53,251 nt of DNA from Methanocalculus taiwanensis (GTDB lineage: Archaea > Halobacteriota > Methanomicrobia > Methanomicrobiales > Methanocorpusculaceae). The translations under genes were made by a program, and so were the position numbers. How positions within the stretch are numbered: position 1 is the first letter of the stretch; every line of letters starts with the position of its first letter. Positions 25,479-30,948 of the stretch are shown here, piece by piece. The stretch covers positions 1 to 53,251 of the forward strand of contig NZ_VOTZ01000005.1 of NCBI RefSeq assembly GCF_024372745.1, written 5' to 3'. The notes under the pieces are model-generated. The model made no database searches, was not told where the DNA came from, and worked only from the letters and a program-made list of their open reading frames with translations.

Positions 25479-26438
25479 ATGCGTTCCAGTGTATTCCATG
25501 AGGCGCTCCATGATCAGGTTAATCCCTTCATCATCGGGGTGGCCGGGGACAGCGGATCGGGGAAGACGACGTTTACACGGATCGTCAGCATCGTTCTTGG
25601 ACCGTCCCGTGTATCGACGATAACCCTCGATGATTATCACCGGTACGATCGGGATGAGAGGGCCGCATTGTCCATTACCCCCCTACATCCCGATGCAAAC
25701 CGCTTTGACCGTCTTGAGTCGGATATCGCCGCCTTAAAACGTGGAGAGGAAATCCAGAAACCGGTGTACAATCATACAAATGGCACTTTTGATCCGGATA
25801 TCCCCTTCCGGCCAAAAAACATTATTATCCTCGAAGGGCTTCATCCCCTCTTCACAGAAGAGCTACGGGAGATGATCGATCTCGCACTCTTTGTCGATCC
25901 CCACCCCGATGTCAAGTATGCATGGAAGATCCGGCGTGATGTGGGGGAGCGTGGCCATACCCGTGAGGCTGTTTTAGCTGAGATTCGCACCAGAGAACCC
26001 GATTATGAAAAGTATGTGGCTTTCCAGAGGCAATATGCAGATTATGTCATCAGGATTGAAGAAAGCCTGGCAGCGCCGGGCCGTGATCCCCCCGTCTATT
26101 CAGTCTCCCTCCTTCAGGCTGATCCATCTTCCTGCCTCCTCACAAATGTACCATTTACCCTTGATCTCTCACGGATTCTCCCGCTCGTCGATGGTCCTTA
26201 TAGCATCTCCGGCTGTAGTACTGAACTGGATGGCAGGAGCCTTGTCTCAATGAGACTGGATGGATATCTCCCCTATGGGTTTGCACGTTCCCTTGAGGAT
26301 AGTATCGAGGCACAGACTGAGATATGTGCATTGCCTTTCTTCCCGGGAAAACTGGTCTCTCCAACAGATGTGATCGCATTATTGATTGCATGGCAGATTA
26401 TCTGCCGACAGTGTTCTCTCACAGAATCTCCCGTTTGA
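25479..26438 (+). CDS. prk: Archaeal phosphoribulokinase
   Basis: A 319-residue kinase of the phosphoribulokinase/uridine kinase family. The P-loop is G-D-S-G-S-G-K-T (residues 23-30), followed by I-T-L-D-D-Y-H-R-Y-D and D-A-N-R-F-D with the catalytic-type Asp, K-P-V-Y-N-H, and I-I-L-E-G-L-H-P-L-F. Methanomicrobiales such as Methanospirillum hungatei carry an enzyme of this kind that phosphorylates ribulose 5-phosphate for RuBisCO in the reductive hexulose-phosphate pathway. No RuBisCO gene lies in this window. Length and motifs fit phosphoribulokinase better than uridine kinase. Confidence 0.8.
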   Translation: MRSSVFHEALHDQVNPFIIGVAGDSGSGKTTFTRIVSIVLGPSRVSTITLDDYHRYDRDERAALSITPLHPDANRFDRLESDIAALKRGEEIQKPVYNHTNGTFDPDIPFRPKNIIILEGLHPLFTEELREMIDLALFVDPHPDVKYAWKIRRDVGERGHTREAVLAEIRTREPDYEKYVAFQRQYADYVIRIEESLAAPGRDPPVYSVSLLQADPSSCLLTNVPFTLDLSRILPLVDGPYSISGCSTELDGRSLVSMRLDGYLPYGFARSLEDSIEAQTEICALPFFPGKLVSPTDVIALLIAWQIICRQCSLTESPV

Positions 26439-27956: not shown

Positions 27957-28012
27957 CAATCATGGTGAAGTTATCACAACTTCTATAGTTCACAAACTCC
28001 AATATCAGAGTG

Positions 28013-28828
28013 ATGAGACAGATTGCCCTCTATGGAAAGGGTGGTATCGGAAAATCAACGACATCGGCAAACCTGTCTGCGGCATGGGCGGATAAGGGGC
28101 TGGATGTACTCCAGATAGGCTGCGATCCAAAACATGACAGCACCAGGATGCTGATGCATGGACGGGTGATCCCGACCGTTCTTGACCTGCTCAGGGAGCA
28201 GAAGCATGATCTCATAGTCTCGGATGTCATCTACACCGGATACTCCGGTGTCAGGTGTGTCGAAGCGGGGGGGCCTGAACCCGGGATCGGATGTGCGGGA
28301 CGGGGCATCATCGCAACCTTCCAGCTCCTTGAGAAGCTCGGTGCGCTGCGAGGGGATCTGATCGTCTATGATGTACTAGGCGATGTCGTCTGTGGCGGGT
28401 TTGCGATGCCGATGAGGGAAGGATATGCAAAAGAGGTGTACCTTGTCACCTCAGGAGAACTGATGAGCCTGTATGCTGCAAACAATATTGCAAAGGCAAT
28501 CTCCCGTCTCAGCGCAAATAAGCGGAGTCAGGTCAGGCTTGCCGGTGTGATCGGCAATGGAAAGAATATCGAATGTGAAGAGGAGCTCGTATCTGAGTTT
28601 GCAGATGCAATAGGATCACAGATGGTCGCATTTATTCCACGATCGAAGACTGTCACGCAGGCTGAACTGAATAAGAAGACCGTCATCGATTATGCTCCCG
28701 CTTCATCACAGGCAGAGGTTTACCGGTCCTGTGCAGATACCATTCTTCTGAACACGGAGTTTTCAATTCCGACACCACTCTCCATTGATGATCTTGAGTC
28801 GCTCGCCTATAGATACCTTAAGGAATGA
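28013..28828 (+). CDS. NifH-like reductase, CfbC/BchL-type
   Basis: A 271-residue homologue of the nitrogenase Fe protein. The P-loop is G-K-G-G-I-G-K-S-T (residues 8-16). The cluster-bridging cysteines are Cys94 ([10 protein letters not shown]) and Cys127 (D-V-V-C-G-G-F). The [19 protein letters not shown] tail and I-P-T-V-L-D resemble CfbC, the reductase of Ni-sirohydrochlorin reductive cyclase in F430 synthesis, more than true NifH. Such proteins deliver electrons with ATP hydrolysis to a NifD-like partner. Two different NifD/K-like genes follow in tight overlap. A GTG just before the ATG is an alternative start. The reaction served is uncertain. Confidence 0.85.
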
Positions 28829-29837
28829 AGGGTGCACCTTAACCGGCGTCCTCTCGGTCACCGGTTTCATGGAGGATGCAGTTACGGTGATCCATGGCCC
28901 CTCCGGATGCACCCATCACAATGCCTCGCTTCTGCATGCCTCACTTGCTGAGATAGATGAGGTGCATATCCCATGCCTCCTCTCCAGCAATATCCTTGAG
29001 GAGGAGGTTATCTTTGGTGGTGAAGATGCGCTTCTCCATACGCTGGATGCCGCAGAGGCACGATCGCCCTCTCTCATCTGTGTTGTATCCACCTGTATCG
29101 CTGATACAATCGGCGATGATTGTGCCGCTCTTTGCAGACAGAAGAGAAGTATGCCGGTTATTCATATTCCGGGTGCAGGTTTTCTCGGTGGCGGGTTTTC
29201 AGAGGGGATCAGAAACGCTCTTACATCCCTTCTTACCCTTGCAGATTCAGATAGCAGCACGCACGATGATAGTGTGCTGATTGTCGGGGAGAAAAATCTT
29301 GAATACGAGGCAGAAGAGAATTTCAGCGAGATCTGCCGGCTCCTCTCCCTCCTCGATCTGGCTCCCGGCATCAGGTTTGTCAGGAGGGCTCCTGTCTCAG
29401 ATTGCCAAAAGATCGGCTCTGCACCGGTGGCAATCATGAGGGAGCCATCCCTTCTGCCGGTCGGATCGATCCTGAGTAGCCGTTTCAACACCCATGTCAT
29501 CCCCGGTTTTCCCGTTGGAACAAAAGGTACCTCTGGTTTCCTTCAGAAGCTTGGGGAGTATACCGGAATCGATCCCCGGTCTGCAATCCATGATGAAGAG
29601 GGGCTGATTGCCGATCTCTATTGCAGCTTTGATGATCTCCGGTGTGAATCCATCCGGCTGAATAGAGCGGGTGCGGATCCCGCCACAATCATGGCAGCAG
29701 AATCAGCCATCAATTCGCTTGGAATGAAGATCAGATCAGAGGGCTATCCTCTCCCATTGCCCTATGATCCGCCCATAGGAATTTCCGGAACCAGGCGAAT
29801 GCTGAATGCGTGGAGGAGGTGCCTTTCCCATGCCTGA
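28788..29837 (+). CDS. NifD-like nitrogenase component 1 protein, first subunit
   Basis: A 349-residue oxidoreductase/nitrogenase component 1 protein. Cys16 (N-E-G-C-T-L-T-G), Cys41 (G-P-S-G-C-T-H-H) and Cys103 ([12 protein letters not shown]) match in spacing (25 and 62 residues) the P-cluster cysteines 62, 88 and 154 of NifD; Cys63 is extra. The protein is much shorter than NifD (about 480) and near the size of CfbD. I find no clear equivalent of the FeMo-cofactor ligands. It starts about 40 bases inside the NifH-like gene (ATG 28788; a TTG precedes it), implying coupled translation. Likely catalytic core with the next gene; substrate unknown. Confidence 0.82.
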
Positions 29838-30948
29838 ATGTATAAACCCCGTCTGGCCATGTGCCCTTACAGGAGCCGCCTCCTTTCTGGCGGGCTTCAG
29901 TGGCCTCTCTGTTGTAATCCACGGATCAAGCGGCTGTTATTACTATCCAAAATCGCTCATCAAGGCACCGCTCCACGGATCATTCATCCTGCAGGAGGAG
30001 GTGATCTTCGGGGCCGGCACCCGGCTCAGATCGGTCGTCTCGGAGATTATGGAGAGGGGTGCTGACCGGGTGGCGGTTGTCAATTCCTGTGTCCCTGCAC
30101 TGATGGGGGAGGATCTTGCCTCGGAACTGGATGGACTTCCGGTTCTCATCATTGATTCCCCGGGTTTTCTCGGAGATGCCGAAGCAGGGTACCGGATCGC
30201 AGCTGACTCCCTTCTCAAGGAGGCAGAGATCACTATTGATGGGGTGAATGTCGGTGGCATCTGCCTCCTTGATCCCTTCTGGCGTGGGAATATGCATGAA
30301 TCAGAACGAATTCTCGCGATGGCCAAAATCCCGGTTGGAGCAGTGCTCTCTTATGATCAGCTGGAATCGCTCTCGCATGCAGCAACGGTGACGGTTTCGG
30401 CAAATCCCGATTATGCAGCTCCACTCGGGAAATCAGGCGGGTCACTCCTTGGCCTTTCCTCCCTGAAGCAAACCCTGATGTATGCAGCCGATTCGATCCC
30501 TGGTGCCGATCCGTCTCCGGTTCTAAAGGAGTGCGATAAGACTGAAGAGATGGTAGTTGCCGCCTGTGAGAAGTACCTCCGGAGAAATGATCCACCTGTC
30601 GCAGCCATCTGTGCACAGTCAGGATATGCTGCGTTCTTTGCCGAACTCCTGGTGCGCTATCTCGGAGCAGAGCGACCACTCATCCTTCCGAGGAATACAA
30701 CAGATACACCAGCTGTCACCGATTACGATCAGATCAGATCAGCCCTCAACTCAGACTCATATGATCTGCTGCTTGGGTCCTCATATGAAGCACGTATCCT
30801 CCCTGATGCAGCATTTGCCGGTATTGCCCCTCCAAACCGTGGGCGTGTTACACTCGGCAGCCGACCGCTTGCAGGAATTGAAGGCACCCTCCATGCGGTT
30901 GAGCTGATCCTGAATGCAATGATGGATCAGAGGAAGAAAGGCAGATGA
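29830..30948 (+). CDS. NifK/NifD-like nitrogenase component 1 protein, second subunit
   Basis: A 372-residue component 1 protein clearly distinct from its neighbour. Cys11 (W-P-C-A-L-T-G-A), Cys36 (G-S-S-G-C-Y-Y-Y) and Cys87 (V-N-S-C-V-P-A-L-M-G-E-D) line up with the three P-cluster-type cysteines of NifK (70, 95, 153; the last spacing is shorter here). Cys4 is extra. The ATG at 29830 has a strong GGAGGAGGTG site eight bases upstream and overlaps the first subunit by eight bases. Known CfbD works as a homodimer, so a second subunit suggests a heterotetramer like NifDK or BchNB. Function not assigned. Confidence 0.82.
   Translation: MPECINPVWPCALTGAASFLAGFSGLSVVIHGSSGCYYYPKSLIKAPLHGSFILQEEVIFGAGTRLRSVVSEIMERGADRVAVVNSCVPALMGEDLASELDGLPVLIIDSPGFLGDAEAGYRIAADSLLKEAEITIDGVNVGGICLLDPFWRGNMHESERILAMAKIPVGAVLSYDQLESLSHAATVTVSANPDYAAPLGKSGGSLLGLSSLKQTLMYAADSIPGADPSPVLKECDKTEEMVVAACEKYLRRNDPPVAAICAQSGYAAFFAELLVRYLGAERPLILPRNTTDTPAVTDYDQIRSALNSDSYDLLLGSSYEARILPDAAFAGIAPPNRGRVTLGSRPLAGIEGTLHAVELILNAMMDQRKKGR

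Follow-up and report, generated by a model that had tools for sequence, protein, structure and literature searches.

What does a nitrogenase-like enzyme do in a methanogen in which the only other protein of its family is CfbD, an enzyme of coenzyme F430 synthesis? The question is raised by the window analysed here, a stretch of 53,251 nucleotides (nt) of Methanocalculus taiwanensis (contig NZ_VOTZ01000005.1, positions 1 to 53,251). Three successive genes overlap on its forward strand. The first, H (28013..28828, with an ATG at 28013 and an alternative GTG at 28010), encodes a NifH-family reductase of the CfbC type. The second, D (28788..29837), encodes a nitrogenase component-1 alpha-like subunit of 349 amino acids (aa) and the third, K (29830..30948), a beta-like subunit of 372 aa. 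Both D and K match PF00148 (E=5e-47 and E=1.8e-24 respectively), with the cfbC-type nifH homologue directly upstream. The H and D frames overlap by 41 nt and the D and K frames by 8 nt. A preliminary description, made from the sequence, had given the coordinates of the two overlapping component-1 frames, the positions of six cysteines and their spacings exactly; it was silent on the neighbouring NifH homologue, which is the sole one of the genome and scores as CfbC. DK is a real and conserved nitrogenase-like component 1. The reading that we tentatively prefer, at somewhat less than even chances, is that of an uncharacterised nitrogenase-like reductase, fed by CfbC, with a P-cluster-type centre, no cofactor and a probable tetrapyrrole substrate. 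It builds on conservation, synteny, the single H, the missing cofactor ligands, the predicted fold and a sister relation to a family of NifH-NifD fusions. No study of the pair was found in the open-access literature, a search that left subscription journals mostly outside.

All six cysteines occupy P-cluster-type positions (all codons on the forward strand). In D, Cys16 (28833..28835), Cys41 (28908..28910) and Cys103 (29094..29096) correspond to Cys62, Cys88 and Cys154 of Azotobacter vinelandii (Av) NifD, with spacings of 25+62. In K, Cys11 (29860..29862), Cys36 (29935..29937) and Cys87 (30088..30090) correspond to Cys70, Cys95 and Cys153 of Av NifK (numbering as in PMC11423573), with spacings of 25+51. 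This correspondence had been proposed in the preliminary description and is upheld by profile-profile alignment with hhalign, which pairs the D residues with C57, C83 and C151 of archaeal NifD and the K residues with C26, C51 and C109 of archaeal NifK, and by alignment with MAFFT. The homologues include those of a GTDB contig scan that used K as query and gave 139 relatives, of which 80 loci, labelled Methanomicrobiales or with the unspecific "Euryarchaeota archaeon", were kept. From these loci, only proteins longer than 300 aa (240 for H) whose stop lies within the stretch were retained, and conservation was counted on distinct sequences. C41 and C103 of D are found in 92/92 sequences and C16 in 90/92, the two remaining copies being truncated at their start where the retrieved stretch ends, and C11, C36 and C87 of K are found in 102/102. 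No other residue occurs at any of the six positions, a conservation far beyond chance.

Cysteines are more numerous than the single extra one per subunit initially reported. D holds 12 (16, 41, 63, 98, 103, 112, 116, 183, 206, 279, 286 and 345) and K holds 8 (4, 11, 36, 87, 145, 235, 246 and 261). Of the two extra residues singled out at that stage, D Cys63 is not conserved, its position being variable (most commonly R, E, D, P or A among the 92 sequences), while K Cys4 (29839..29841) is near-invariant (99/102; two exceptions have a Cys one residue off and one starts after position 4) and is the extra cysteine most worth a test. D Cys116 (29133..29135), absent from the preliminary list, is mostly conserved (84/92, with four gaps, three other residues and one X). 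It need not be a ligand since both archaeal NifE sequences aligned also carry a Cys there.

H passes the NF033200 model (F430_CfbC) with 412.4 bits for a cut-off of 402, as does the H of three other genomes (three tested), and its Cys 38, 83, 95 and 128 (numbered from the GTG) are present in 83/83 homologues. It is the sole PF00142 match over the cut-off in the genome, whose PF00148 matches are D, K and CfbD only; NifEN was not found by this search of a genome that is 99.86% complete. The genes cfbA, cfbB, cfbD and cfbE are grouped on a separate contig, without cfbC, and the CfbD encoded there (contig C17) scores 504.2 bits on TIGR03282. CfbC and CfbD together reduce Ni-sirohydrochlorin a,c-diamide (PMC7242693). 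With no second NifH homologue above the cut-off in this genome, we infer that H reduces CfbD; by its position beside D, it should serve DK as well. A single CfbC-type H thus apparently feeds both CfbD and DK. The arrangement recurs among relatives. In 61 genomes (the source and 60 relatives, some less than 90% complete, where a second NifH may be missed), a NifH homologue was detected at E 1e-40 in 57, and exactly one in 45. In 44 of these 45 it lies within 370 nt of D, the exception being G049, where NifH is at another locus. The overlaps are conserved too: 41 or 35 nt for H-D in 79/95 pairs and 8 nt for D-K in 70/86 same-strand pairs, counts in which some genomes are entered twice and gene starts were set by our own rule.

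DK is widespread within its group. D was detected in 202/232 genomes of the class and in 124 of the 135 good ones. The 80 loci comprise 55 with H, D and K adjacent, 10 with all three but K apart, 5 with D and K, and 10 with K alone within the stretch. In a draw of 294 genomes from the phylum, 63 have a match at 1e-22, of which 54 belong to the order and 9 to family f8, which we read as Methanosarcinaceae. The nine f8 matches (82-97 bits) lie in frames of 739-807 aa, and the seven of them that were read are NifH-NifD fusions. From these searches, clear DK orthologues appear only in the order Methanomicrobiales. No D was found in thirty genomes of the class; five of these (G074, G076, G125, G185 and G049) nevertheless gave a K match, full-length or partial, and part of the missing D genes can thus be put down to gaps in the assemblies. 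Plasmid records gave 85 with a match; among the 50 listed, coverage of the query does not exceed 36%, and wherever a match falls in a named feature this is a nif gene.

The iron-molybdenum cofactor (FeMoco) of nitrogenase is held by Cys275 and His442 (PMC3464626). No Cys is found at the Cys275 column in the 12 D sequences aligned, while one is present there in the aligned NifD and NifE and in two further groups of nitrogenase-like proteins. Nor does any Cys or His past residue 103 reach 97% conservation among the 92 D sequences; H36 and H43 stand before that residue. The hhalign match of D to NifD stops at position 372 of 536, ahead of the His442 region. The absence of a cofactor-binding Cys/His pair, already suspected in the preliminary description, is thus borne out and, as judged from the alignments, no conserved Cys or His of D would be able to hold a FeMo-type cofactor. 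Both proteins had also been thought too short. Relative to the archaeal NifD and NifK aligned, D is shorter by 179-194 residues and K by 84-86. The AlphaFold2 models, with a predicted local distance difference test (pLDDT) score of 87 and a predicted template modelling (pTM) score of 0.84 for D (residues 1-13 below 50) and of 90 and 0.90 for K, suggest that the remark applies to D, whose third domain looks cut down (two strands of at least three residues against four in K, by our reading of the models), but not to K, which is predicted to be a complete nitrogenase fold. With VIA-align, BchB of protochlorophyllide reductase (DPOR) is the best match for both subunits: 365/372 residues of K are aligned (Z 35.2), and 326 of D between residues 7 and 349 (Z 30.1), with AnfK as runner-up (Z 32.5 for K and 27.9 for D).

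These data also bear on a role as scaffold or relay, comparable to NifEN, in [8Fe-9S-C] cluster assembly or in the activation of methyl-coenzyme M reductase. NifE is the top NCBIfam match of both subunits (65.5 bits for D and 37.9 for K), Cys116 is common to D and the two archaeal NifE, and methyl-coenzyme M reductase activation uses L-clusters (PMC12176620). However, the scores are far below the NifE cut-off of 505 bits (and D reaches 28 of 327 bits with NifN), the cofactor column is a Cys in NifE and not in D, and DK was detected in a single order whereas McrC/Mmp7 occur across Euryarchaeota, TACK and Asgard archaea (PMC12176620). We consider such a role improbable.

The cluster type, the oligomer, the electron path and the class of substrate that we infer for a CfbC-fed reductase can be put together as follows. 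H would act as the ATP-driven reductase of a component 1 made of D and K which, by homology, would assemble as a (DK)2 heterotetramer. The six cysteines would meet at the D-K interface and hold a P-cluster-type iron-sulfur centre. Without a FeMoco-like cofactor, electrons would run from H to this centre and straight on to an organic substrate bound in the cavity, in the manner of protochlorophyllide reductase, and one reductase would drive two component-1 proteins, DK and CfbD. The likeliest substrate would be a tetrapyrrole of the F430 or corrinoid type, whether an intermediate, a variant or a damaged molecule. The preliminary description had allowed either a P-cluster-like or a bridging [4Fe-4S] centre. 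Its six ligand positions stand, and the choice would now narrow toward the P-cluster type, since the six Cys are kept in about 100 sequences while BchNB and CfbD, which have only part of the set, hold no P-cluster (PMC12552129). This is tempered by the archaeal NifE and NifN aligned, which also have 3+3 Cys, and the placement at the interface is that suggested by the alignment. The more specific proposal of a P-cluster-only reductase, in which an [8Fe-7S] relay works without an [Fe8S9C]-type cofactor on an F430 or corrinoid tetrapyrrole and CfbC is held in common with CfbD, is doubtful, though its chance is appreciable. A family that keeps the six P-cluster ligands but has none for a cofactor would show that the relay can do without the cofactor, which bears on the origin of nitrogenase.

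Among the groups compared, the NifH-NifD fusions with their K partner are the sister of DK. When CfbD and one long row are left out of the tree, D groups as sister with the D part of these fusions (100/99) and K with their K partner (99/97), DK not being nested among them; NifD and NifE fall on the D side of this tree and NifK and NifN on the K side. The sister result rests on this CfbD-free tree. A first tree, which included CfbD, put it on the same side as D and the fusions, on a very long branch of 3.5, and left the sister relation of K unresolved. Sequences of DPOR, Mar and Isr were in neither tree. In the H tree, where 12/23 inner forks are unresolved, the H part of the fusions forms a separate clade. 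The fusions, found in some genomes of f8 and of group g37, differ from the Methanocalculus genes, which are separate, in that H and D are joined. As in D, the FeMoco column holds no Cys in any of the seven fusions aligned, although that of L179 has one in the adjacent column. Their K partner occurs in 19/232 genomes, including 8/12 of g37, which we take to be Methanospirillum. A replacement of DK by the fusion would fit g37, but other genomes, G053 and G090 for example, carry both, and the idea was rejected. Fused nifH/nifE-like genes have been noted without a function (Dos Santos 2012, PMC3464626).

Eight fusion loci were read. Three are near CobN, ChlI/ChlD-like or CbiK genes and four near a FecCD transporter. 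At three loci (L175:7494-10948, L183:6236-9708 and L185:6354-9831) the fusion and its K partner stand near CobN, ChlI/ChlD-like, CbiK, FecCD or corrinoid adenosyltransferase genes. These three loci are possibly a metallo-tetrapyrrole system.

For DK itself, the tetrapyrrole substrate is the weakest step of the proposal. It is suggested by the CfbC held in common with CfbD, by the sister family and by a fold like that of BchB, none of them decisive, and several observations weigh against it. First, function may not carry over from the fusions, because they have 3+1 Cys (one in the K partner, with Asp and Pro at the other positions) against 3+3 in DK. Moreover, four of the eight fusion loci, read by eye and two of them short stretches, have neither a chelatase nor FecCD. 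Second, the structural ranking varies by program: BchB comes first in VIA-align, but by E-value in Foldseek the top match is AnfK for K and NifK for D. Third, none of the genes that recur around DK could be recognised as a tetrapyrrole gene. Most of these identifications were made by eye on the first 75 to 90 residues, some being checked with models, and part of the loci read were chosen, not random. The commonest neighbour is a leuB-type gene (45/80 loci), and neither TrkH nor the leuB/C/D-type and phosphoribulokinase (PRK)-family genes point to a tetrapyrrole. Fourth, D was found in 0/12 g37 genomes and not in G134; with K as query, three weak matches came from g37 (E 1e-9 to 1e-14), none of them a K of the DK family, and no match at all from G134. 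H is nevertheless present in all three D-less genomes searched, G198 (which we take to be Methanospirillum hungatei), G200 and G134. H therefore does not need DK and, as g37 and G134 lack D yet keep H (three checked), no universal methanogenic step needs DK. The DK-free g37 offers a natural comparison to DK-bearing relatives, which makes the question testable.

The silence of the neighbourhood also speaks for a variant in which the CfbC-fed, P-cluster-type and cofactor-free DK acts on a substrate outside the tetrapyrroles, such as a small compound of sulfur or some other organic molecule. Mar and Isr, which are characterised nitrogenase-like families, act on sulfur compounds. However, Mar has an [Fe8S9C] cofactor with Cys270 as ligand (PMC12552129), a position where D has no Cys, inspection by eye of the window's open reading frames and of the recurrent neighbours brought up no radical SAM gene, the donor is CfbC-like, and the sister fusion family is partly linked to tetrapyrrole genes. 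This variant is unlikely, without being far-fetched.

Two further explanations were weighed. DK could assist CfbD, for instance as a regulator or as a donor of clusters, drawing on the same CfbC but catalysing nothing itself, as might be suggested by the overlap of D with the sole cfbC and by its apparently reduced third domain. The six Cys kept in about 100 sequences argue for a redox centre in use, and G198 and G134 have a CfbC-like H and CfbD but no DK, which makes the helper role quite improbable. Alternatively, DK could supply the cobalt-precorrin-6A reductase step (CbiJ) of corrin synthesis. CbiJ (PF02571) was found in 0/28 genomes (25 of the order and 3 of f8), and CbiC in 25/25 tested. 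However, the gap is equally present in the DK-free G198, G200 and G134 and in the three f8 genomes, which led us to reject DK as a general CbiJ substitute and leaves this role only a very slight chance. In its own right, the missing CbiJ leaves one step of corrin synthesis unassigned in these archaea.

No family besides H, D and K is constant at DK loci. TrkH was found near DK at 13/21 and 39/80 loci in two sets, a PRK-family gene at 11/21 and 5/80, and leuB/leuC/leuD-type genes at 9/21 in the first set and at 45, 31 and 38 of 80 in the second. A flavodiiron-type protein and a desulfoferrodoxin are also recurrent upstream of H. The lone H of G198 and G134 sits among the same upstream genes as the DK-linked H: a PRK-family and a flavodiiron-type gene adjoin it at L176, and TrkH, desulfoferrodoxin and flavodiiron-type genes at L178. 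As they stand beside the lone H too, PRK, TrkH, desulfoferrodoxin and flavodiiron genes are uninformative on DK. In the window, a phosphoribulokinase/uridine kinase-family gene lies at 25479-26438, two genes upstream of H, and the PRK-family gene beside H in L176 passes the phosphoribulokinase model. The leuB-type gene passes the 3-isopropylmalate dehydrogenase model. It is found upstream of K on the same strand in 15/80 loci (for example L114:2841-5161), in none of which D adjoins K on that strand; we see no functional meaning in this arrangement.

Other nitrogenase-like genes were encountered during the survey. A second, divergent H-D-K set (L186:6427-9566) lies beside a FecCD transporter in G012, presumably Methanocorpusculum labreanum; its K-like subunit keeps 1/3 Cys. 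It may be the Mlab_1040/1039 pair of Methanocorpusculum, described as having a different Cys pattern (PMC3464626). A single NifE-like protein of 396 aa (L180:7927-9117), one gene past a cfb cluster, carries the three P-cluster-type cysteines together with one in the FeMoco Cys275 column. Similar NifE-like singles are present in L187 and L188, where they were not seen beside cfb genes.

Compared with the known systems, DK combines features that are otherwise found apart. CfbD likely shares its reductase with DK, as H scores as CfbC, but is encoded by a single gene instead of a D and K pair and has Ser at the first Cys column in 6/6 rows aligned, unlike D; it has been credited with two Cys (Dos Santos 2012, PMC3464626) or three (PMC11423573). 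Neither D (48.5 bits) nor K (25.3 bits) passes TIGR03282, whose cut-off is 268.4. If DK is what we propose, a single reductase would, in most of a methanogen order, supply both the F430 pathway and a second enzyme of unknown role. DPOR (BchL with BchNB) resembles DK in having no FeMoco. Its NB protein carries a [4Fe-4S] cluster (PMC11423573) on three Cys and one Asp (PMC11423573, PMC3464626), whereas the DK sequences aligned have Cys, and no Asp, at all six positions. The BchB and BchN models are not passed either (D 54 of 490 and 33 of 420 bits; K without a match at 0.01). The uncharacterised "yellow" clade of Dos Santos 2012 (PMC3464626) is like DK in having 3+3 Cys and no FeMoco ligands; it is not named for Methanomicrobiales in the part of that survey consulted. 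MarDK and NifDK share the six P-cluster-type cysteines with DK but also hold a Cys for the [Fe8S9C] or FeMo cofactor, where DK has neither such a Cys nor a conserved His. In Mar, the P-cluster on 3+3 Cys is accompanied by an [Fe8S9C] cluster, MarD Cys270 being at the position homologous to the nitrogenase cofactor ligand, while BchNB and CfbD, which do not have all six Cys, have neither cluster (PMC12552129). The families compared there thus have both clusters or neither, and DK, if our reading is true, would separate the two.

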